A stretch of DNA of 33,051 nucleotides from Bacteroidota bacterium (GTDB lineage Bacteria > Bacteroidota > Bacteroidia > JABDFU01). Made by a program: the position numbers and the translations under genes. The stretch is taken from assembly GCA_013286655.1 (NCBI GenBank), contig JABDFG010000025.1, positions 1-33,051 on the forward strand, given 5' to 3'. Under the pieces are notes generated by a model. That model was not told the DNA's origin. It saw only the letters and a list, made by a program, of their open reading frames with translations, and ran no database searches. Positions 1,309 to 31,434 of this stretch are shown piece after piece; position 1 is the stretch's first letter, and every line of letters begins with the position of its first letter.

Positions 1309-1436
1309 TTTGATGGGTTTTAAGAGTTAATAAAATTAATTGCTTTTCTTAAAATCCCACCTTAGAATTACCCTACATATGGTCCATTGAATGCTGACGA
1401 TTTACAGTAAAAAGAAATAAAACATTGCACTATAAA

Positions 1437-2342
1437 ATGTGTAACTTAGAAATAGTGAAAAAACCAATTTGTTTTATTTTATTTTTGTTTTCCCTATTTC
1501 ATTGTAATTGGGCTCGGGCTCAATTTATTTTGGCTGGAGAATATACTGCAAACGATTACTTTCACGATATTAATCCAGATACAGTATTAAAATCTGCTAT
1601 TCCTAATGGTGGCGGCAATGTTATCAGTTCATATTATCTAGATGTAGATGGTGATTCTAAATCCGATTTTAAAATTACCAACGAATGTGAGTGTTTAGCA
1701 AAGCCGATAGGATTGTTTGATATATCCATATCCGCGTTAAACAATTTCAATAAAATAGCATTTTCCCATATTGATAGTTGTACGGGAGGGGGAGGCTCAT
1801 ACGGATCAGAAGCAGAAGCGATAGCTTTTTCTTTTAATTATGCTGACACCATTAAGAATGCGGGTGCTTGGAAATGGACGGATACTGCATACGCATATTA
1901 TTATTTTTATGATATGGATGGTAAGGATTGTATCCAATATATTCCAGATACTTTTTATATTGGATTCCGATTAATAAACGCATCAGATACATTATATGGG
2001 TGGTTATGCATGTATTTTTATGATTATAAGATCACCTTACAAGAATACGCCTGTAATAAAAAGATTTTGGGAATTCTAGAAAATATGAATAATAAAATAT
2101 CAATGTCGGTCTACCCCAATCCCTCATCCACTTTCCTAACCGTCCAAACATCCCTCACCCAAGCCCACCCAATCCAGATCAGTTTGCTCAATCTCTTGGG
2201 TCAAATTGTATCATCTTCCGATCCTCCCATCTCTCCCTCCTATTCAATTGATGTGGACGATCTTCCCAAAGCCATCTATATTGTCCAGGTCCAGGATATT
2301 TTGACTGGAGAAGTTGGCAGACAAAAAGTTGTTATTCAGTAG
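1437..2342 (+). CDS. Secreted T9SS protein, tandem paralog 1 of 3
   Basis: The ATG at 1437 gives 301 residues. A TTG at 1425 and a GTG at 1455 are alternatives, and the GTG would make the N-terminus resemble the paralogs (MKK, short signal peptide ending ARA-Q). The mature part begins QFILAG and has a calcium-loop-like LDVDGDSKSDFKI, followed by paired cysteines (CEC) and a conserved FYIGFRLIxxSDTLYGWL segment. The last 75 or so residues are a type A T9SS sorting tail starting VYPNPSS, which is cleaved after export. The protein should be released or anchored at the cell surface. Function is unknown. The tail DNA is C-rich and nearly identical to that of the two following paralogs, while the bodies have diverged. 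Confidence 0.8.
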   Translation: MCNLEIVKKPICFILFLFSLFHCNWARAQFILAGEYTANDYFHDINPDTVLKSAIPNGGGNVISSYYLDVDGDSKSDFKITNECECLAKPIGLFDISISALNNFNKIAFSHIDSCTGGGGSYGSEAEAIAFSFNYADTIKNAGAWKWTDTAYAYYYFYDMDGKDCIQYIPDTFYIGFRLINASDTLYGWLCMYFYDYKITLQEYACNKKILGILENMNNKISMSVYPNPSSTFLTVQTSLTQAHPIQISLLNLLGQIVSSSDPPISPSYSIDVDDLPKAIYIVQVQDILTGEVGRQKVVIQ

Positions 2343-2464
2343 CAACTGTTCGGCGTAAATAGGCGGTTGGTAATTATTAAATGAGCACCAGCCTCGCTTT
2401 ATCAGCGTATTCTTAAATGTCCATTAACTTTATAAAACATTCCTAAAAAATCGACCTTGCTCTC

Positions 2465-3337
2465 ATGAAAAAAAAATATCTCATTATCTATGCTGTATTA
2501 TTTTTAAAATTGGGGGTAAGTGAGGCGCAATATATAAAAGCCGGGCAACATACTTTAAATGATTACTTTCATAATTTCAACCCTGCCCTGGTAATAAATA
2601 CTGGCGCTCTGCTTGATACTACTGCCACGTATCTTCTTGACTTAAATGGTGATTCGACCCCGGATTTTAAAATTATTAATCGTTGTAATTGTGGAGCATT
2701 AGGCGAAAGCATAATGGATATTAATATTAATGCGTTGAGTAATTCTAATAAAGTAGCATTCTCTCATTTAGACAGTTGCACGGGAACTCAAAATAGATCA
2801 TTTTCTTTAGAAGCAATGGCCTTTCCCTTTAGTTACGCTGATACAATTAAAAATTCGGGAGGGTGGAGATGGGATGATACATTGACTTTTAGATATAATT
2901 GGTATGACCAGATTGATCGTTATTGCGGCTTGTATATACCGGATACTTCTTACATAGGCTTTAGGCTAATAAATAATTCTGATACATTATTCGGCTGGCT
3001 GCTTATTAATTTAAATGGGTATTCAAAGATTACCTTACAAGATTATGCTTGTAATTTAAAACCAACAGGCATAAATGAGCTTTCGAATTATGATTTCCAG
3101 CTAAAAATTTCCCCAAATCCCTCATTCGGCAATATCAGCATCCAAACTACCACCCAATCCCATCCAGTCCAGATCACTCTGTTCAGCCTGCTTGGTCAAA
3201 CCGTTACTAGTTGCAATCCTCCCGTTTCCCTCTCTTATTCCATTGATGTGAGCGATCTTCCCAAAGCCATCTATATTGTCCAGGTCCAGGATATTTTGAC
3301 TAGAGAAGTCGGTAGACAGAAAATTGTTGTTCAATAA
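2465..3337 (+). CDS. Secreted T9SS protein, tandem paralog 2 of 3
   Basis: This is 290 residues with a signal peptide of about 21 residues ending SEA-Q. The body follows the family pattern: IKAGQHTLNDYFHNFNP, then LDLNGDSTPDFKI with CNC, an HLDSCTG motif, and YIGFRLINNSDTLFGWLLI. A type A T9SS tail beginning ISPNPS closes the protein. It lies 122 bp behind paralog 1 in the same direction. Its last 49 identical nucleotides with paralog 1 (3253-3301 against 2258-2306) and similar bases after the stop (AACTGTTCGG) show that the copied segment extends past the coding region. Role unknown. The metal-loop motif suggests a calcium-stabilised surface domain. Confidence 0.8.
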   Translation: MKKKYLIIYAVLFLKLGVSEAQYIKAGQHTLNDYFHNFNPALVINTGALLDTTATYLLDLNGDSTPDFKIINRCNCGALGESIMDININALSNSNKVAFSHLDSCTGTQNRSFSLEAMAFPFSYADTIKNSGGWRWDDTLTFRYNWYDQIDRYCGLYIPDTSYIGFRLINNSDTLFGWLLINLNGYSKITLQDYACNLKPTGINELSNYDFQLKISPNPSFGNISIQTTTQSHPVQITLFSLLGQTVTSCNPPVSLSYSIDVSDLPKAIYIVQVQDILTREVGRQKIVVQ

Positions 3338-3461
3338 CAACTGTTCGGAACATTTTGCTACTACAATGTAGCTTGAAATAGGAGCACATGTCCCATCAAT
3401 TAGGGTATTAAGACAGGGTAAAAAGTAGAAATATTCAGGTGTAAATACTTAGCTTAGAGCA

Positions 3462-4349
3462 ATGAAAAAGGCACTAACTGTTTTTGGGGGATTGTTTTTA
3501 CTACTATGTTTTAATAAATCAAAAGCTCAGTTTATTATTGCCGGACAACATGCGGCAAGTGATTATTACCATAGTATCAACAATGATACAACATTAAATT
3601 CTGCTGCATATTTAAATGTTCCTCCGTATAAAGAAGCTCCTGTTTCATTTACCCTCGACTTAAATGGAGATTCAAGTCCAGATTTTATAATTACTGGGGA
3701 TTGCAATTGTGGAGCATTAGGTCAAACATCTTCATATTTTAATATTATTACATTAAATAAATCTAACAATATGGCTTTTTCTCAAATTGATAGTTGCAAG
3801 GTCAGTAACACCAATAGCCCAATGATTTTTTCTTTTAATAGGAATGATACGATTAAAAATTTGGGAGCTTGGAAATGGAAGGATACTTTGACTATTAATT
3901 ATTCTTACTGGAATATGACTTGGGGAAGTTGTTACGAATACATTTCCGATACATCCTATATTGGATTTAGGTTAATAGGGAAATCTGATACTTTATATGG
4001 TTGGTTATATATTACTTTAAATGAAAATGAATATTCAATAATAACTTTATATAACTATGCTTGCAATAAAGAGATTACTGGTATTTCTGAAAACAATTAT
4101 AAAAATTCAATTTCTGTTTACCCCAATCCCTCATCCACTTTCCTAACTGTCCAAACATCCTTCACCCAAGTCCACTCCGTCCAGATCATCTTGCTCAACC
4201 TTCTGGGCCAAACCGTTATATGCTCCAATCCACCCGCCTCTCTCTCCTATTCAATTGATGTGGGTGATCTTCCCAAAGCCGCCTATATTGTCCAGGTTCA
4301 GGATATTTTGACTGGAAAAATCGGCAGACAGAGGGTTGTTGTTCAGTAA
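3462..4349 (+). CDS. Secreted T9SS protein, tandem paralog 3 of 3
   Basis: This is 295 residues with a signal peptide of about 22 residues ending SKA-Q. The mature part has IIAGQHAASDYYHS, an LDLNGDSSPDFII loop with CNC, DSCKV and YIGFRLIGKSDTLYGWLYI, the same order as in the two preceding genes. The type A T9SS tail beginning VYPNPSS matches that of paralog 1 almost base for base (4118 onward against 2111 onward). It is 124 bp behind paralog 2. A hairpin at 4371-4415 probably ends transcription of the cluster. Function is unknown; export by T9SS is well supported. Confidence 0.8.
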   Translation: MKKALTVFGGLFLLLCFNKSKAQFIIAGQHAASDYYHSINNDTTLNSAAYLNVPPYKEAPVSFTLDLNGDSSPDFIITGDCNCGALGQTSSYFNIITLNKSNNMAFSQIDSCKVSNTNSPMIFSFNRNDTIKNLGAWKWKDTLTINYSYWNMTWGSCYEYISDTSYIGFRLIGKSDTLYGWLYITLNENEYSIITLYNYACNKEITGISENNYKNSISVYPNPSSTFLTVQTSFTQVHSVQIILLNLLGQTVICSNPPASLSYSIDVGDLPKAAYIVQVQDILTGKIGRQRVVVQ

Positions 4350-25070: not shown

Positions 25071-25520
25071 TTACTTCTTAACTACCACCTGAATGGTTCT
25101 ACTCCAGTCCTGACCGTAACTCTGATGCATCCCGTCAGCAAATTGAAGTGTTAAGGTGTGTGAACCAGGACTTAATTGTAAGGTATCCGAAGTTTGACCT
25201 TTCCCAAAATGCAGATGAGTCTCATCTTTAGCAACCATTTGCCCCTTTTCAACGAAACTGCCATCAACGATAAGATGGTGGTGGCCTTTGCCGGTATTAA
25301 GTTTACCTGCAGGTTCCACCTCCATGCCCTTCACACCCATTTGAATAATTACGGGTGATTTTACGGTATCTCCATCTTTCAGATTTGAAAAATACACTCC
25401 ATTCCCATCTATGTTTTGAACATTCCGAGTATTGGAATTACCAGTTTCCACTTTTGGGGTTTGGTCGCAAGCAATTATCATTGAAAGCAATACGAATGGC
25501 ATTAATATTTTGATTTTCAT
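25071..25520 (-). CDS. DUF4399 lipoprotein
   Basis: The ATG at 25520 gives 149 residues; a longer frame to 25556 would place 12 extra residues before the signal and run into the regulatory array. The signal peptide ends in a lipobox-like SMIIAC with Cys18 as the lipid anchor. The mature part has VYFSNLKDGDTVKSPVIIQMGVKGMEVEPAG and GKGHHHLIVDG, the DUF4399 pattern, followed by HLHFGKGQTSDTLQLSPGSHTLTLQFADG. The histidine-rich motifs suggest metal binding, but this has not been shown for the family to my knowledge. It is periplasmic or outer-membrane attached. Its promoter carries the four-heptamer array shared with three other genes here. Confidence 0.85.
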   Translation of the reverse strand: MKIKILMPFVLLSMIIACDQTPKVETGNSNTRNVQNIDGNGVYFSNLKDGDTVKSPVIIQMGVKGMEVEPAGKLNTGKGHHHLIVDGSFVEKGQMVAKDETHLHFGKGQTSDTLQLSPGSHTLTLQFADGMHQSYGQDWSRTIQVVVKK

Positions 25521-25538: not shown

Positions 25539-25596
25539 TAAAGGAACGTACAACACATTAAAACAAAAGTAAAACGAGATTAAAATCTTATTAAAT
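25539..25596 (-). promoter_or_regulatory. Heptamer array and -7 element, site 1 (DUF4399 gene)
   Basis: Read on the minus strand: ATTTAAT (25596-25590), TTTTAAT (25585-25579), TTTTACT (25574-25568) and TTTTAAT (25563-25557), each 11 bp apart. After 10 nt comes TTCCTTTA (25546-25539), a weak -7 element. The ATG is 18 nt further on. Confidence 0.7.
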
Positions 25597-25633: not shown

Positions 25634-26125
25634 TCACGAATTCCATTTGAAATAAAACATCACTAAGGCCACCATGAGAATAGTTACTGCTATGTATATT
25701 GCAACCATCTTCTGTCTGACTTGTTGATTTTTGTATTCTTTTCGCTCGACCGAATTTAAAATTCTTTGGATGAGCATATCTGTCATTTTGGTTGAGTCCT
25801 TGTCCTTTACCAAATAATCATAACTAACTTCCTTAGGCAAATCCTGCCGCATTGTTTGATCGTCTGGCTCCAAAAGTATAATTACTGAACTTTTGGATGT
25901 CCTTTCTTTAATCATTTTTGACACCTCCAGTATCTGTTTACCTAACATTTTATAATCCAGTATGATAACATCCGGTTTGGCAAGCATATTATTTACACAT
26001 TGACCGGCAGTTTCAAAACTCAGTATCTCGTAGCTGGAATTACGCTGAAATTTATAATTGAGCATGAAGGAGTATATTTTTTCTGGTTCAAGAATAAAAA
26101 CGGTATGTTTTTTATGATCTTTCAT
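25634..26125 (-). CDS. Receiver-domain protein with C-terminal membrane anchor
   Basis: The 163 residues begin with a CheY-like receiver: VFILEPE at the first strand (Glu13 and Glu15 in place of the usual Asp pair), VIILDY with Asp57 as the phosphoacceptor, and YLVKD with Lys107. The conserved Thr/Ser after strand 4 is not evident (VIILLEPDD). After a charged helix (about 116-139), residues 141-159 are a hydrophobic membrane segment ending FYFKWNS. A receiver tethered by a tail anchor and lacking an output domain is unusual. It would sit on the cytoplasmic side of the inner membrane, perhaps as a phosphate sink or adaptor for the nearby histidine kinase. Its promoter has the shared heptamer array. 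Confidence 0.8.
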   Translation of the reverse strand: MKDHKKHTVFILEPEKIYSFMLNYKFQRNSSYEILSFETAGQCVNNMLAKPDVIILDYKMLGKQILEVSKMIKERTSKSSVIILLEPDDQTMRQDLPKEVSYDYLVKDKDSTKMTDMLIQRILNSVERKEYKNQQVRQKMVAIYIAVTILMVALVMFYFKWNS

Positions 26126-26129
26126 CGGG

Positions 26130-26187
26130 CAAATATCAAACGATGCAATTAAAGAATGGTTAAACTTGGATTAAAATGGAATTAAAA
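26130..26187 (-). promoter_or_regulatory. Heptamer array and -7 element, site 2 (receiver gene)
   Basis: Read on the minus strand: TTTTAAT (26187-26181), TTTTAAT (26176-26170), GTTTAAC (26165-26159) and CTTTAAT (26154-26148), each 11 bp apart. After 10 nt comes GATATTTG (26137-26130). Only 4 nt separate this from the ATG, so the transcript is leaderless or nearly so. Confidence 0.75.
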
Positions 26188-26265
26188 AGACTTGAGTTTG
26201 CCCCTTGCAAACATTAGTCTTTTTTATACCCTTTAGGGTGCTAAAAAGGATTTTTTAGTCCTCTA

Positions 26266-27585
26266 TTATGCACGAATAATTGGCAGTATAATCAGTATTT
26301 CAGTTCCCATTCCCTCTTCTGAATTAATTTGGATAAGGCCTTTGTGGAGTTCAATTATTTTTTGAGTAAGGGACAATCCCAATCCACTACCTGGCAAACT
26401 TCTTGCATTTGTTGCGCGGTAAAATGGTTCGACTATTTTCGAAAGTTCGTTTTTAGGTATCCCGATTCCTTTGTCTTTAAAACGAAGTTCAATGTCTTCT
26501 TCGTTTGCCATAAATACAACGTCTACGCTCATATTATCGGAATACTTGCAGGCGTTTTCCATTAAGTTAAAAAATGCCGATTCGATCAGTGGTTCATTTC
26601 CAAAAATAGTTAACCGGGATTCATCTTCTGGAAAAGTTAAAAATGCAATGTTGGCTTTATAGGCAGGAAAGTTTTTTAGCAACTTTTCCCTGGAGGAAAA
26701 TAGAAGTTCATCTATTCTTACATTCCGAAGTTTCAAGGCTCCCACATCCGTTGTGGCGAGAGCCAAGTCAAGCAAATTATTGGAAATTTTACTAAGTCCT
26801 TTTATATCGTTTAAAAGCGATTCTAATAATTCAATGTATTCCTTTGTATTTCTTTCCTTTTTGAGTGTCACTTCAATATGTCCGGTGATTGAAGTCAGTG
26901 GTGTTCGCAATTCATGTGAAGCGTTGGATACAAATGCTCTTTGCATTTCAAAGCCTTTCTCCAGGCGATCCAGAACTTTATTAAAAGTGATGGAGAGTTG
27001 TGCGATCTCATCTTTTTTGTTTCCCTCATTTAATCGAACATTCAGTTTGGACATCGTAATCTCCTTTGCATCGGTAATAATTTTAGAAATGGGATGTAAA
27101 GCCAATCCGGAAAATAACCATCCGGTTACATAAGAAACAAGCACTGCCAGGAGTAGCCCAACTGTCAGTATAATTTTAAGATTCCTGATATTGTCCTGCC
27201 CATATTTATCAAACGCAGAAACAACTACCTTAAATTGTTTATCGTTTACGGAATACTGAAAGCTACAGGTTTCAATCTCAATCTTATTATTGGTGCTATC
27301 TTTTGTATCACTATAAACCAAGTTATTGTTTTGATCAAATACAGAAATTGTTTCGTTGAAAAGTGCATTTTTTGTATCGGCATTAATGGAATTTAACAAA
27401 TTATTGTCGATTTGTTTTACATCTGTCAGGAGGTTAACCACTGTAGTACCCCTGTTTTTCATCCGTATTGCAAATTCAGACGCCCTGTACGAGGACGAAA
27501 AATAAAATAACGATAATCCGAATAAAAGAAATAGACTTGCAACAATAAGACAAAATTTCAATGCAAGATTCTGGCGAATGTTCAT
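26266..27585 (-). CDS. Sensor histidine kinase
   Basis: The 439 residues are organised as follows: membrane segment (about 10-30), periplasmic sensor of about 105 residues (32-136), second membrane segment (137-163), HAMP linker (164-215), and HisKA with His224 in SNASHELRTPLTS. The ATP-binding domain has the N box NLMENACKYSDN, the G1 box KDKGIGIP and the G2 box GSGLGLSLTQKI. All boxes are intact, so it should be active. Its gene starts 5 bp after the response-regulator stop, forming one operon with it. The signal is unknown; the overall plan resembles CusS/QseC-type sensors of envelope or metal stress. Confidence 0.93.
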   Translation of the reverse strand: MNIRQNLALKFCLIVASLFLLFGLSLFYFSSSYRASEFAIRMKNRGTTVVNLLTDVKQIDNNLLNSINADTKNALFNETISVFDQNNNLVYSDTKDSTNNKIEIETCSFQYSVNDKQFKVVVSAFDKYGQDNIRNLKIILTVGLLLAVLVSYVTGWLFSGLALHPISKIITDAKEITMSKLNVRLNEGNKKDEIAQLSITFNKVLDRLEKGFEMQRAFVSNASHELRTPLTSITGHIEVTLKKERNTKEYIELLESLLNDIKGLSKISNNLLDLALATTDVGALKLRNVRIDELLFSSREKLLKNFPAYKANIAFLTFPEDESRLTIFGNEPLIESAFFNLMENACKYSDNMSVDVVFMANEEDIELRFKDKGIGIPKNELSKIVEPFYRATNARSLPGSGLGLSLTQKIIELHKGLIQINSEEGMGTEILIILPIIRA

Positions 27586-27590
27586 CAGGA

Positions 27591-28274
27591 TTATGATTCC
27601 TTTAAGATGTAACCCATCCCAACATGGGTATGAATAAGTTTGGAGGAAAATCCCTTATCTATTTTATTACGGAGAAAGCTAATATAAACATCAATTATGT
27701 TGGTACCGGTGTCAAAGGTAATATCCCATATTTTTTCAGCTATCTCTGCCCTGGAAATTACTTTATTTTTGCTTCTCATTAAAAATTCCAAAAGTTGAAA
27801 TTCCTTGGCAGTTAATTCAATATTTTTTCCAGCCCTGCATACTGTCTTTGCATCCAGGTTCATTTCCAGATCCGCTATTTTCAAAATATTAGTTTGAAGG
27901 ACCGCATGATTCGTCCTTTTAAGGAAGACACGTACCCTTGCAAGCAGCTCTTTAAACTCAAAAGGTTTTACAAGGTAATCATCCGTACCGGCATCAAATC
28001 CTTCGAGTTTATCTTGAGTAGTTCCAAGAGCTGTAAGCATTAGAACAGGTACGGAAGCATTGTGATTCCGAATTTCTTTACAGACTTCAAAACCATTCAT
28101 CATCGGAAGGTTAACGTCCAAAATGATCATGTCATAATTCTGAGATAGCGCCATTTTCTTCCCTATTAATCCATCGTATGCAACTGCGGTTTCAAACCCT
28201 TCTTCTTCAAGACCCTGACGAATGAATGATGCAACTCTTTTCTCGTCTTCTATGATTAATATTTTAGTTCCCAT
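27591..28274 (-). CDS. OmpR-family response regulator
   Basis: This 227-residue protein has a receiver domain (1-120) with the acidic pair Glu9/Asp10, phosphoacceptor Asp53 in MIILDVNLPMMNG, Thr81 and Lys103 (DDYLVKPF), followed by a winged-helix DNA-binding domain (about 130-225) with LTAKEFQLLEFLMRS, RAEIAEKIWD, and the recognition helix TNIIDVYISFLRNKI. It is the partner of the histidine kinase directly downstream. OmpR-family proteins bind head-to-tail to direct repeats spaced by about one DNA turn. Four such arrays (11-bp spacing) lie around this operon, one in the intergenic region upstream of it, and it is the natural candidate to bind them. Confidence 0.93.
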   Translation of the reverse strand: MGTKILIIEDEKRVASFIRQGLEEEGFETAVAYDGLIGKKMALSQNYDMIILDVNLPMMNGFEVCKEIRNHNASVPVLMLTALGTTQDKLEGFDAGTDDYLVKPFEFKELLARVRVFLKRTNHAVLQTNILKIADLEMNLDAKTVCRAGKNIELTAKEFQLLEFLMRSKNKVISRAEIAEKIWDITFDTGTNIIDVYISFLRNKIDKGFSSKLIHTHVGMGYILKES

Positions 28275-28320: not shown

Positions 28321-28378
28321 AATTAATCTGATTTTAATTTCATTTTAATCAGTACTTAATTGCATTATAAGAGCTTTG
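28321..28378 (+). promoter_or_regulatory. Heptamer array and -7 element, site 3 (barrel-protein gene)
   Basis: AATTAAT (28321-28327), TTTTAAT (28332-28338), TTTTAAT (28343-28349) and ACTTAAT (28354-28360) are each 11 bp apart. After 10 nt comes GAGCTTTG (28371-28378). The ATG at 28401 is 22 nt further on. The array lies between the divergent regulator and barrel genes and is oriented towards the latter. Confidence 0.75.
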
Positions 28379-28400: not shown

Positions 28401-30542
28401 ATGACTAGATTGGTGAATATCTCGACAGACAACGATTTTAAAAGAAAATTCCTTTTATCAATGGTCGCCCTCATAACAAGCATTGCTTATGGTCAACATA
28501 AAACTGATATAACATTAACAGTAAAAAGTGATTCTTTGAAATTTTCCGAACCTGCTAACAATATAAAAGATGGAGATAGCACCTATCTCTACTTTACTTC
28601 TAACGATGAACAGCCAGTTATAAAAGTGTTCTTTAAAGAAAATAATTTACTACCTCTGGCCCCGCTTTCTCTTTTGCCCTCTGATCATTATACCATTATC
28701 GATTCACTTAAAAAAAATATGGATGGATTGTATGGCGGGAAAATAAGGTTGAACGATTTTCTTACAGATCAAAGACCTGTTTTAAGTGTAAAGGTAGGCT
28801 CCAATCATTTTAATTACAATTTACTACCCGTTATCCTGCCAGTAATTACTACAGATCAGAAAACAGTAGATGTTTTTCAGGAGGAACAGAAAACCATTGA
28901 GTTTCCTGAAACTAATGGGTTTAATATAAAAACAGAAAATTCATTTATTCAGGGGAAGGACTTTGACTACAAATTAACAAATTATCTCAATTTGCTGGCT
29001 ATAACAATCAAGCCCCACAGCATCGGAACAAGACAAATAAATATTCCATTAAAAAGCAATTTCCCTGTTCTGGATTCTAAAGGGAACCTTACGAATAATA
29101 TTCAAATTCTTTCCATTGGCATAAATGTTAAACAATTTAAGTTTTCTTATATAAATTTTGACAAGAATGCTATTTTCTATTCTCCTGATTCAAAAATCAG
29201 TCAACAGATAATGGTCGATTATAATCCTCTTTTTGAACAGACCAAATCATTCAGAATAGAAGATCAACAAAACGGTGGAGAGTTGATTGCTGAATTAATT
29301 GTTGAATCAATTGTAGATAACACTAAAAAAGTCGTATGCAGGATAAAACCGTTCGCCTTTCATAAAGTTTCGGACGGTTATCTGTATATTAAAGATTCAG
29401 AAAAGAACCGGTTTATCTGTAATCTTAATATCAGTGAAAAGCCAAAGATTGAAAAAGTATCTATCCGAAAAAACGGCGATGACTGGGATGAAACCCTAAC
29501 TGTTCATCCAGGTGAACAAATCGAAGTGAGAATACAAGGTAAGGACCTTGAAACAAATAAAATACAATTTGATGGGATTTCAGACGCAAAACAAGACACT
29601 GTAAAATCTTCTGATGAATTTGTCTATTTCCGCTTCAAAGTTCCACTTGCAATCGCCAATAAGCATATTTCCATATTCCTGGATCGTAAAGAAACATCTT
29701 ACCAGTTAAGTGTAAGGGATTATAAAAAACCTTCCCAGTTCGATTTTGTAAACATCAATTACGGGAAGGCACCTGTTGCTCTTACGGATGTTCGATTCAA
29801 TAAACCGTTTTTTTATGATAGTGCTATTAAAGACATCAATATCACATTTAACCCCAATAGAATTGATATAAATGACAAACTCTATGGTAAACAGTATATT
29901 AATATCGAGGTGAAGATTCTTAATAAAGACAATGATCTGATTGAAGATGAAAAAATTGAAAATCTGGTTATTTGCCCCGGGGATCAATCACCAAGAAAGG
30001 GGCATTATGATGTTTCTGATTGCAATGAGCCGCTTATAAATCTTAATGATTACCTGGATCATAAAACCTATAAGCTACCCGAATTTACCCAGATTATCAT
30101 TATAGTGAGTCACGATGAAAGTAAATACGATGATACGAAAGGATATAAGCGAAAAATCAAACTCATCCTCTCACGTAAGTATAATTATGACCTACAGTTG
30201 TCATTTCCAACAGGACTTTTAGTGAAAAATTTCGGAGACGGAGGAGGTATTGGAAATTTATCCGGTATAAGTGCCTCAGTACTTTTTAATATGACCCCTT
30301 ACGATGATAAACAACCCGGTCAGTTAAGGCCCTATTCCATCGGCGCAGGTTTTTTGGCACTTAATGCATTAAATCTCAGCAGTACGGCAACATCTGATCT
30401 TGGCATTGTTGTTATGGGAACAATCCAGCCTTTCAGGAAAAATGCCAAATTCAGTGTTCCAATCTATTTTGGTTATGGATACTTTGTTAAAAGTAGTAGG
30501 TTCTTTGAAATTCTAGGCCCAGGATTGCAATTTAATTTTTAG
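28401..30542 (+). CDS. Envelope protein with Ig-like repeats and a C-terminal outer-membrane barrel
   Basis: The 713 residues begin with a long signal peptide (about 1-31, ending AYG-Q; a start further in is possible). The middle, about 35-570, is rich in beta strands and looks like several Ig-like domains (for example VHPGEQIEVRIQGKDLETNKIQF near residue 370). From about 590 the alternating pattern YNYDLQLSFPTGLLVKN to the terminal GPGLQFNF, ending in Phe, is typical of an outer-membrane beta-barrel. No family name was recognised. It is transcribed divergently from the regulator operon, behind its own heptamer array, so it should be a target of the two-component system. Confidence 0.65.
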   Translation: MTRLVNISTDNDFKRKFLLSMVALITSIAYGQHKTDITLTVKSDSLKFSEPANNIKDGDSTYLYFTSNDEQPVIKVFFKENNLLPLAPLSLLPSDHYTIIDSLKKNMDGLYGGKIRLNDFLTDQRPVLSVKVGSNHFNYNLLPVILPVITTDQKTVDVFQEEQKTIEFPETNGFNIKTENSFIQGKDFDYKLTNYLNLLAITIKPHSIGTRQINIPLKSNFPVLDSKGNLTNNIQILSIGINVKQFKFSYINFDKNAIFYSPDSKISQQIMVDYNPLFEQTKSFRIEDQQNGGELIAELIVESIVDNTKKVVCRIKPFAFHKVSDGYLYIKDSEKNRFICNLNISEKPKIEKVSIRKNGDDWDETLTVHPGEQIEVRIQGKDLETNKIQFDGISDAKQDTVKSSDEFVYFRFKVPLAIANKHISIFLDRKETSYQLSVRDYKKPSQFDFVNINYGKAPVALTDVRFNKPFFYDSAIKDINITFNPNRIDINDKLYGKQYINIEVKILNKDNDLIEDEKIENLVICPGDQSPRKGHYDVSDCNEPLINLNDYLDHKTYKLPEFTQIIIIVSHDESKYDDTKGYKRKIKLILSRKYNYDLQLSFPTGLLVKNFGDGGGIGNLSGISASVLFNMTPYDDKQPGQLRPYSIGAGFLALNALNLSSTATSDLGIVVMGTIQPFRKNAKFSVPIYFGYGYFVKSSRFFEILGPGLQFNF

Positions 30543-30641: not shown

Positions 30642-30699
30642 TTTTAATCCTTTTTTAATCCCGTTTTATATCCGTTTTCATCTTGGCAGTGTTCTTTTG
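30642..30699 (+). promoter_or_regulatory. Heptamer array and -7 element, site 4 (lipoprotein operon)
   Basis: TTTTAAT (30642-30648), TTTTAAT (30653-30659), TTTTATA (30664-30670) and TTTTCAT (30675-30681) are each 11 bp apart. After 10 nt comes TTCTTTTG (30692-30699). The leader to the gene at 30889 would be about 180 nt and contains a 34-codon ORF. Confidence 0.75.
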
Positions 30700-30888: not shown

Positions 30889-31434
30889 ATGAAGAAGATC
30901 GTCAACAACTATCCCAAAAAACTAATTAAAGGGAAAAGGGAGTTAAACGCAAGGCGTTTTTTGAATATACTCCTGGCTGCGGTTATTACCGGAAGCATAC
31001 TAATTACTGATACCGGTTGCAAAACTCATAAGGCAGCAACATCAACAAATACAGATGATGCTAAGGCTAAAGCAGAAGCCGCAGCAAGAAAGAAAGCGGA
31101 GGAAGAAGCTGCTGCTAAAGCGGCAGCAGATGCGGCAGCCAAAAGGGAACCCTACAACAGGGTAGAAAAATACTTTCAACAAATATCAGACGCACCTGAT
31201 GTTAACACTGCAAATCAGACAATTAATTCTGCTATGTCCTCTTTTAAAACCGGGGACATTCCTGTTTTGATTATTATTTACCGCAATGGCATTTCTGTTG
31301 ATTATGATCAGCCCACAACTATCAGCAAATACCTGAACTACCTGAAAGATCAGAAGAAAAATCCAAATGCAGTAGATCATCTGGAAATGGATGGTAATGG
31401 AAAAATAACAGAAGTAGTATTAATTAAAAAATAA
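30889..31434 (+). CDS. Membrane-anchored or lipoprotein with Ala/Lys/Glu helix, 181 aa
   Basis: A basic N-terminus of about 23 residues is followed by a hydrophobic stretch (24-40) and TDTGC with Cys44. It could be a lipoprotein, but the position before Thr42 is Asp rather than Leu, so a plain membrane anchor is also possible. Residues about 56-88 form an AKAEAAARKKAEEEAAAKAA-type rigid helix like that of TolA. The C-terminal 90 residues form a small globular domain (YNRVEKYFQQIS, then IPVLIIIYRNGISVDYDQPTT). The C-terminal domain was not recognised. The following gene begins 5 bp after its stop, so the genes are co-transcribed. Confidence 0.7.
   Translation: MKKIVNNYPKKLIKGKRELNARRFLNILLAAVITGSILITDTGCKTHKAATSTNTDDAKAKAEAAARKKAEEEAAAKAAADAAAKREPYNRVEKYFQQISDAPDVNTANQTINSAMSSFKTGDIPVLIIIYRNGISVDYDQPTTISKYLNYLKDQKKNPNAVDHLEMDGNGKITEVVLIKK

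Follow-up and report, generated by a model that had tools for sequence, protein, structure and literature searches.

Receiver domains are usually regarded as soluble messengers, and the principle of a regulator-like inhibitor encoded in its own regulon is already known. The closest precedent is Osp from Rhodobacter sphaeroides, a single regulator-like domain that has the Asp but lacks the acidic pair and the Lys, and whose expression is activated by CtrA (PMC9430884). Its direct target is the kinase CckA, which is inhibited at an equimolar ratio, and the D51N form of Osp also works (PMC9430884). Sequestration of a kinase by non-cognate regulators is another documented damping route (PMC10368727). 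MrrA from Caulobacter is likewise a stand-alone receiver tied to histidine kinases; it is reported as part of a phosphorylation hub of the general stress response and apparently not as a degenerate receiver in such a feedback regulon (PMC5964349).

Here, we describe a tail-anchored receiver (REC-TM) from a Bacteroidota bacterium. Like Osp, it is a single receiver-like domain in which the phosphorylatable Asp is kept and a Mg2+ acid is lost (PMC9430884). Osp is expressed under the pathway's own regulator via a conserved site, and the corresponding element of REC-TM is a putative repeat site. In contrast, no anchor is described for Osp, its Lys is missing, and its target is an alphaproteobacterial hybrid kinase/Hpt/CtrA relay. 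The likeness is one of anatomy and proposed circuit.

The locus and its neighbors

The window, that is, the whole stretch of DNA analyzed (33,051 nucleotides), contains the following genes and elements around REC-TM.

25071..25520, (-) strand: putative DUF4399 lipoprotein, putative regulon member (PF14347, E 1e-32; start inferred at an internal Met)
25634..26125, (-) strand: tail-anchored pseudo-receiver gene, REC-TM (ORF of 163 aa, PF00072, syntenic ortholog)
26184..26224, (-) strand: terminator-like hairpin and T-run between the kinase and REC-TM genes (-16 kcal/mol, z -4.4, 0/200 shuffles as good)
26266..27585, (-) strand: histidine kinase (HAMP-like, HisKA, and HATPase_c by Pfam)
27591..28274, (-) strand: OmpR/PhoB-type response regulator (Response_reg and Trans_reg_C)
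28401..30542, (+) strand: predicted exported protein of 713 aa, putative regulon member (ORF and site geometry)

The REC-TM ORF begins with ATG, and ORF inspection found no in-frame start codon upstream. Because the hairpin and T-run separate it from the kinase gene, REC-TM is probably a separate transcription unit. The same-genus genome G005 has an identical gene order from the regulator through the kinase and REC-TM to DUF4399, and the divergent 713-aa gene and those that follow it are also arranged alike; its REC-TM ortholog (L032:7430-7921) is 45% identical. The other products are 92.5% (regulator), 80-81% (kinase), 87% (713-aa protein), and 70% (DUF4399) identical to their G005 counterparts. 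The corresponding dN values are 0.04 for the regulator, 0.12 for the kinase, 0.07 for the 713-aa gene, 0.25 for DUF4399, and 0.40 for REC-TM, and dS is saturated between the orthologs of both REC-TM and the kinase. REC-TM evolves fastest of the compared genes, yet its frame, its anchor, and the Asp and Lys are kept. Judged by these rates (dN 0.40 despite saturated dS), REC-TM is under constraint. In another genome, G004, the regulator and kinase pair is represented by a diverged homolog that no REC-TM adjoins. Elsewhere in the window, transposase-like helix-turn-helix ORFs near the contig start (683-1308) are possibly the remnant of an insertion element, and at 1425-4349, three paralogs lie in tandem, each encoding an exported protein of ~300 aa with a similar C-terminal sorting-like domain.

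Architecture of REC-TM

Three parts can be distinguished in the protein.

25760..26125, (-) strand: receiver domain, residues 1-122, with Glu13-Pro14, Asp57, Leu85, and Lys107 (AlphaFold2, Foldseek, and residue counts over 101 homologs)
25706..25759, (-) strand: K/R-rich helical stalk prolonging α5, residues 123-140 (AlphaFold2 and family K/R bias)
25649..25705, (-) strand: C-terminal transmembrane segment, residues 141-159 (KD 2.60)

Residues 1-122 match PF00072 (31.2 bits against a cutoff of 30.2), and the AlphaFold2 model, computed with a 48-row alignment of anchored receivers, has a complete (βα)5 fold with a mean pLDDT of 90.2, so that the protein is a receiver by both profile and fold. 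Foldseek matched the receiver model to PhoB, PhoP (1mvo, E 3.6e-6), NtrC1, and Spo0F; the matches of a single-sequence model, whose pLDDT was only 59, were disregarded. The receiver with Asp57 and Lys107 that had been proposed from the DNA alone is confirmed, and both residues are invariant among the 101 anchored receivers (101/101 each).

The model contains one continuous helix (111-162) that runs from α5 through the charged stalk into the membrane segment. The possibility that residues 141-159 form the core of a soluble fold is ruled out, as the segment lies outside the receiver fold in the model. Hydropathy, the model, and the tails of the homologs agree with the proposal of a C-terminal membrane segment in place of an output domain. 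The K/R content within 15 residues averages 4.2 before the anchor and 0.6 after it among the 101 anchored receivers; this excess points to an N-in topology, with the receiver predicted to be cytosolic.

A family of anchored receivers in Bacteroidota

The combination of a receiver and a C-terminal anchor had been taken as a singular oddity of this protein, a view that did not survive the homolog search: it characterizes a large Bacteroidota family. Besides REC-TM, the host genome, at 72.55% completeness, has at least four short receivers with a C-terminal anchor (L028:9261, L028:10249, L029:7112, and L030:7565), and relatives across the class likewise encode such proteins. Hosts include Prolixibacter, Sunxiuqinia, Puteibacter, and Chitinophagaceae. 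One family-bearing MAG labeled Azovibrio is suspected to be mis-binned. A single-protein scan of the genome contigs with REC-TM matched no relative; the pattern used for the relatives was built on a canonical subset of five rows, as a 19-row alignment gave none usable. In the scan of named genomes (best 80 loci), the anchor was present in 78 of 79 short homologous ORFs, a sample of best matches that includes near relatives, so that its frequencies are not unbiased.

The tail after the anchor has a median length of 8 aa and is at most 14 aa in 98/101 proteins, being longer in three. Such short tails indicate that no further domain follows the anchor, and none was found in the 101 anchored receivers. 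REC-TM shares this architecture, a short protein composed of receiver, stalk, and C-terminal anchor and then nothing. Among 55 genes of this biased sample with enough flanking sequence, 25 directly adjoin two-component genes, commonly following a kinase gene, or a hybrid kinase gene and then an Hpt gene, in the same direction; roughly half of the sampled members have no such neighbors. Tandem stand-alone receivers, both anchored and soluble, occur among hybrid kinases, Hpt proteins, and LytTR-type regulators at L028:9261-11565, L034, L036, and L044.

The closest non-anchored proteins by score are the receivers of Bacteroidota NtrC-family sigma-54 regulators, which differ in having an AAA+ domain after the receiver and no anchor. 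The tree places the window lineage ambiguously, and neither a single clade of anchored and stand-alone receivers that includes the window protein (p-AU 0.74) nor a grouping with the NtrC receivers (p-AU 0.65) was rejected. In a non-exhaustive literature search that covered few subscription journals, no paper describing anchored receivers or response regulators was found. Both the tail-anchored architecture and the extent of this family, which is widespread in Bacteroidota, are apparently undescribed.

A degenerate active site

A catalytically complete receiver has two acids, the Asp, a Ser or Thr, and the Lys. In the 101 anchored receivers, the second acid (position 14) is Asp in 98 and a Ser or Thr occupies position 85 in 100, the sole exception being the window protein; Gly65 is conserved in 99. 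At these three positions, the window protein carries Pro14, Leu85, and Ile65, and the ortholog carries Ser14, Ser85, and Leu65. REC-TM thus lacks two of the five canonical residues, and Pro14 and Leu85 make it a pseudo-receiver under a published definition, which the ortholog also fits (PMC12632262). By its residues, the family is catalytically canonical and the window protein is the exception. The other Bacteroidota members (L028, L030, L033-L047, and L060-L139) resemble it in length, receiver signature, stalk, single anchor, and short tail, but their active site is complete, and their genes stand alone or in relay clusters. The window protein differs in Pro14, Leu85, the missing Gly65, and its OmpR-type repeat site. 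What sets it apart is a degenerate active site combined with membership of a putative regulon, not the anchor.

An altered acidic pocket had been predicted, and the alteration is real, as Asp14 is replaced by Pro. It had been misassigned to Glu13/Glu15: the acidic pair is residues 13 and 14, and Glu13, found in 47/101 anchored receivers, is normal for the family. The switch Thr/Ser is indeed missing, with Leu85 at the position where the other 100 proteins, including the ortholog, have Ser or Thr. Because Asp57 and Lys107 are kept, residual phosphorylation is possible. Another anchored receiver without the second acid (Asp-Gln) was found at L035:7377-7865; no kinase gene is nearby, and its branch in the tree is long.

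Repeat sites and promoter geometry

Candidate regulatory sites, each composed of four TTTAAT repeats at 11-bp spacing, were found at the following positions, together with a promoter element.

25557..25595, (-) strand: repeat site before the DUF4399 lipoprotein gene (0 mismatches; geometry)
26130..26137, (-) strand: GATATTTG, putative -7 element of REC-TM, 10 nt past the repeats and 4 nt ahead of the start codon
26148..26186, (-) strand: four 11-bp TTTAAT repeats before REC-TM, putative OmpR-type regulator site (0 mismatches; also present in the ortholog)
28322..28360, (+) strand: repeat site between the regulator gene and the divergent 713-aa gene (1 mismatch)
30643..30681, (+) strand: weaker repeat site upstream of the gene at 30889-31434 (3 mismatches; 2 in the site of the G005 ortholog)

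Four repeats at 11-bp spacing are what tandem dimers of an OmpR/PhoB-family protein would be expected to bind. With at most two mismatches, the pattern has five matches in 2.6 Mb, three in the window and two on host contig C29; chance occurrence is rejected, as the reversed control gave 0. With at most three mismatches, the host genome (G000) has nine matches (two in controls) and G005 has ten (none in controls), and the remaining genomes of the genus have between zero and four each, almost always with three mismatches. The G005 sites occupy corresponding positions, among them the far end of contig C33, the counterpart of host C29. This synteny suggests that the end of the window contig (33051) and the start of C29 are probably adjacent and that the sites form one local cluster. 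The C29 sites (L145:2487-2525 and 2941-2979) flank a small Lys/Ala-rich exported peptide, and the neighboring genes encode two ClC-type chloride channels and a further receiver and kinase. In G005, a second DUF4399 gene lies behind its repeat site (C33:14000-22388, L166). The motif (A)AGTCTT precedes several repeat sites, including one in the window (26160-26190); in the window and before DUF4399 in G005, it is the 3' arm of a hairpin, so that terminator and operator may overlap.

The consensus of the Bacteroidota -7 element is TAnnTTTG. An octamer that resembles it and ends in TTTG or TTTA lies exactly 10 nt after the fourth repeat at five of six host sites; at 28322..28360, it is GAGCTTTG, pointing toward 28401. 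In REC-TM, GATATTTG is followed by CCCG and ATG, and in the ortholog, a weak element, GACCTTCA, at the same 10-nt spacing from the repeats, is followed by CTCA and ATG. The predicted -7 element ending 4 nt before the ATG thus exists as sequence and recurs at the same spacing in a second species. In the DUF4399 and 713-aa genes, the -7-like element is about 16 to 23 nt ahead of the start codon. The 4-nt distance, being both specific to REC-TM and conserved, supports a near-leaderless transcript, and the REC-TM mRNA is probably leaderless or nearly so. Taken with the ortholog, the repeat sites and promoter geometry strongly support the original placement of REC-TM in the putative regulon of the adjoining kinase, in which the regulator would bind and activate.

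Proposed function of REC-TM

The fold, the anchor, the loss of catalytic residues, the repeat sites with their geometry, and the conservation pattern, as seen in the sequence or the model, suggest a circuit whose remaining steps (regulator binding, activation over repression, kinase docking, and inhibition) we infer. The histidine kinase would phosphorylate the adjoining OmpR-type regulator, which would bind the four TTTAAT repeats and activate REC-TM from its own promoter, apart from the kinase operon. REC-TM would be anchored at the inner membrane with its receiver on the cytosolic face, and its α1/β5-α5 face would dock on the dimerization/phosphotransfer domain of the kinase. The docked protein, itself presumably a poor phosphate acceptor, would block the kinase or compete with the regulator, passing no phosphate on, and the loop would close as negative feedback. 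To this reading, an Osp-like negative-feedback decoy tethered beside its own kinase, we assign a probability of roughly 0.45. It is supported by the adjacency of the two genes, whose products are both membrane-bound, and by the concentration of repeat sites with fixed promoter geometry in the two genomes that have the locus. Retention of Asp57 and Lys107, the small number of known orthologs (two), and the many sampled family genes that do not adjoin two-component genes speak against it.

In known kinase-receiver complexes, α1, the β5-α5 loop, and α5 contact the histidine kinase. Between the two orthologs, these elements are identical at 19/28 positions, compared with 15/40 for α2, α3, and α4, whereas 788 control pairs of other anchored receivers at similar identity had a reversed mean bias (-0.09, sd 0.12; none ≥ +0.30); the comparison was chosen post hoc from the alignment with one ortholog pair, and the control pairs are not independent, so that the bias of the docking face is suggestive only. 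No specific likeness to α1 of the cognate regulator was found in REC-TM beyond ExEK, and the overall identity is 28%.

The original prediction had offered a phosphate sink or a feedback adaptor, and the feedback part fits the present data. As a sink, the anchored receiver would take phosphoryl groups from the kinase, drain them, and set a threshold. Such sinks are reported among single-domain receivers, the kinase gene adjoins, and Asp57 and Lys107 are kept. However, with Pro in place of Asp14 and Leu in place of Ser85, the protein has lost its second Mg2+ ligand position and the hydroxyl that stabilizes the phosphoryl group, which makes the sink rather improbable, and the ortholog also lacks the second acid. 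The degenerate active site likewise weighs against an output adaptor, in which the kinase, with or without phosphate, would activate REC-TM and the signal would pass to a membrane partner such as a transporter or envelope machine. The continuous helix from α5 through the stalk to the anchor could carry such a signal, family members follow hybrid kinase and Hpt genes at many loci, and ClC channel genes lie near further repeat sites; but α4, which commonly contributes to the output face, is one of the elements that differ most between the orthologs, and this role is unlikely here. Other REC-TM proteins at the end of hybrid-kinase/Hpt relays may serve in this way.

The sign of the feedback is unreadable from sequence, and anatomy and regulon evidence would equally suit a positive loop or scaffold, with REC-TM recruiting or stabilizing the kinase or raising its kinase/phosphatase ratio. 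The closest precedent, Osp, inhibits (PMC9430884), and we consider a positive role quite improbable. Least credible is a decaying paralog of little function that is losing its active site by drift. The dN of 0.40 against 0.12 (kinase) and 0.04 (regulator) and the loss of canonical positions would be expected of it, but the frame, the anchor, Asp57/Lys107, the repeats, and the promoter geometry have persisted in a second species although synonymous sites are saturated, and the conservation of one face appears non-random.

More broadly, it is a tentative and rather doubtful proposal that tail-anchored receivers form a general Bacteroidota class that acts on kinases within the membrane plane and that some members, as here, have become catalytically dead decoys in their own two-component regulon. 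As a test case, the locus would be compact, comprising a single kinase and regulator, a handful of promoters, and one putative decoy. If the proposal is true, a large family of receivers is fixed to the membrane by its own α5, often beside kinases or Hpt proteins, and many Bacteroidota relays would end or be controlled at the membrane.
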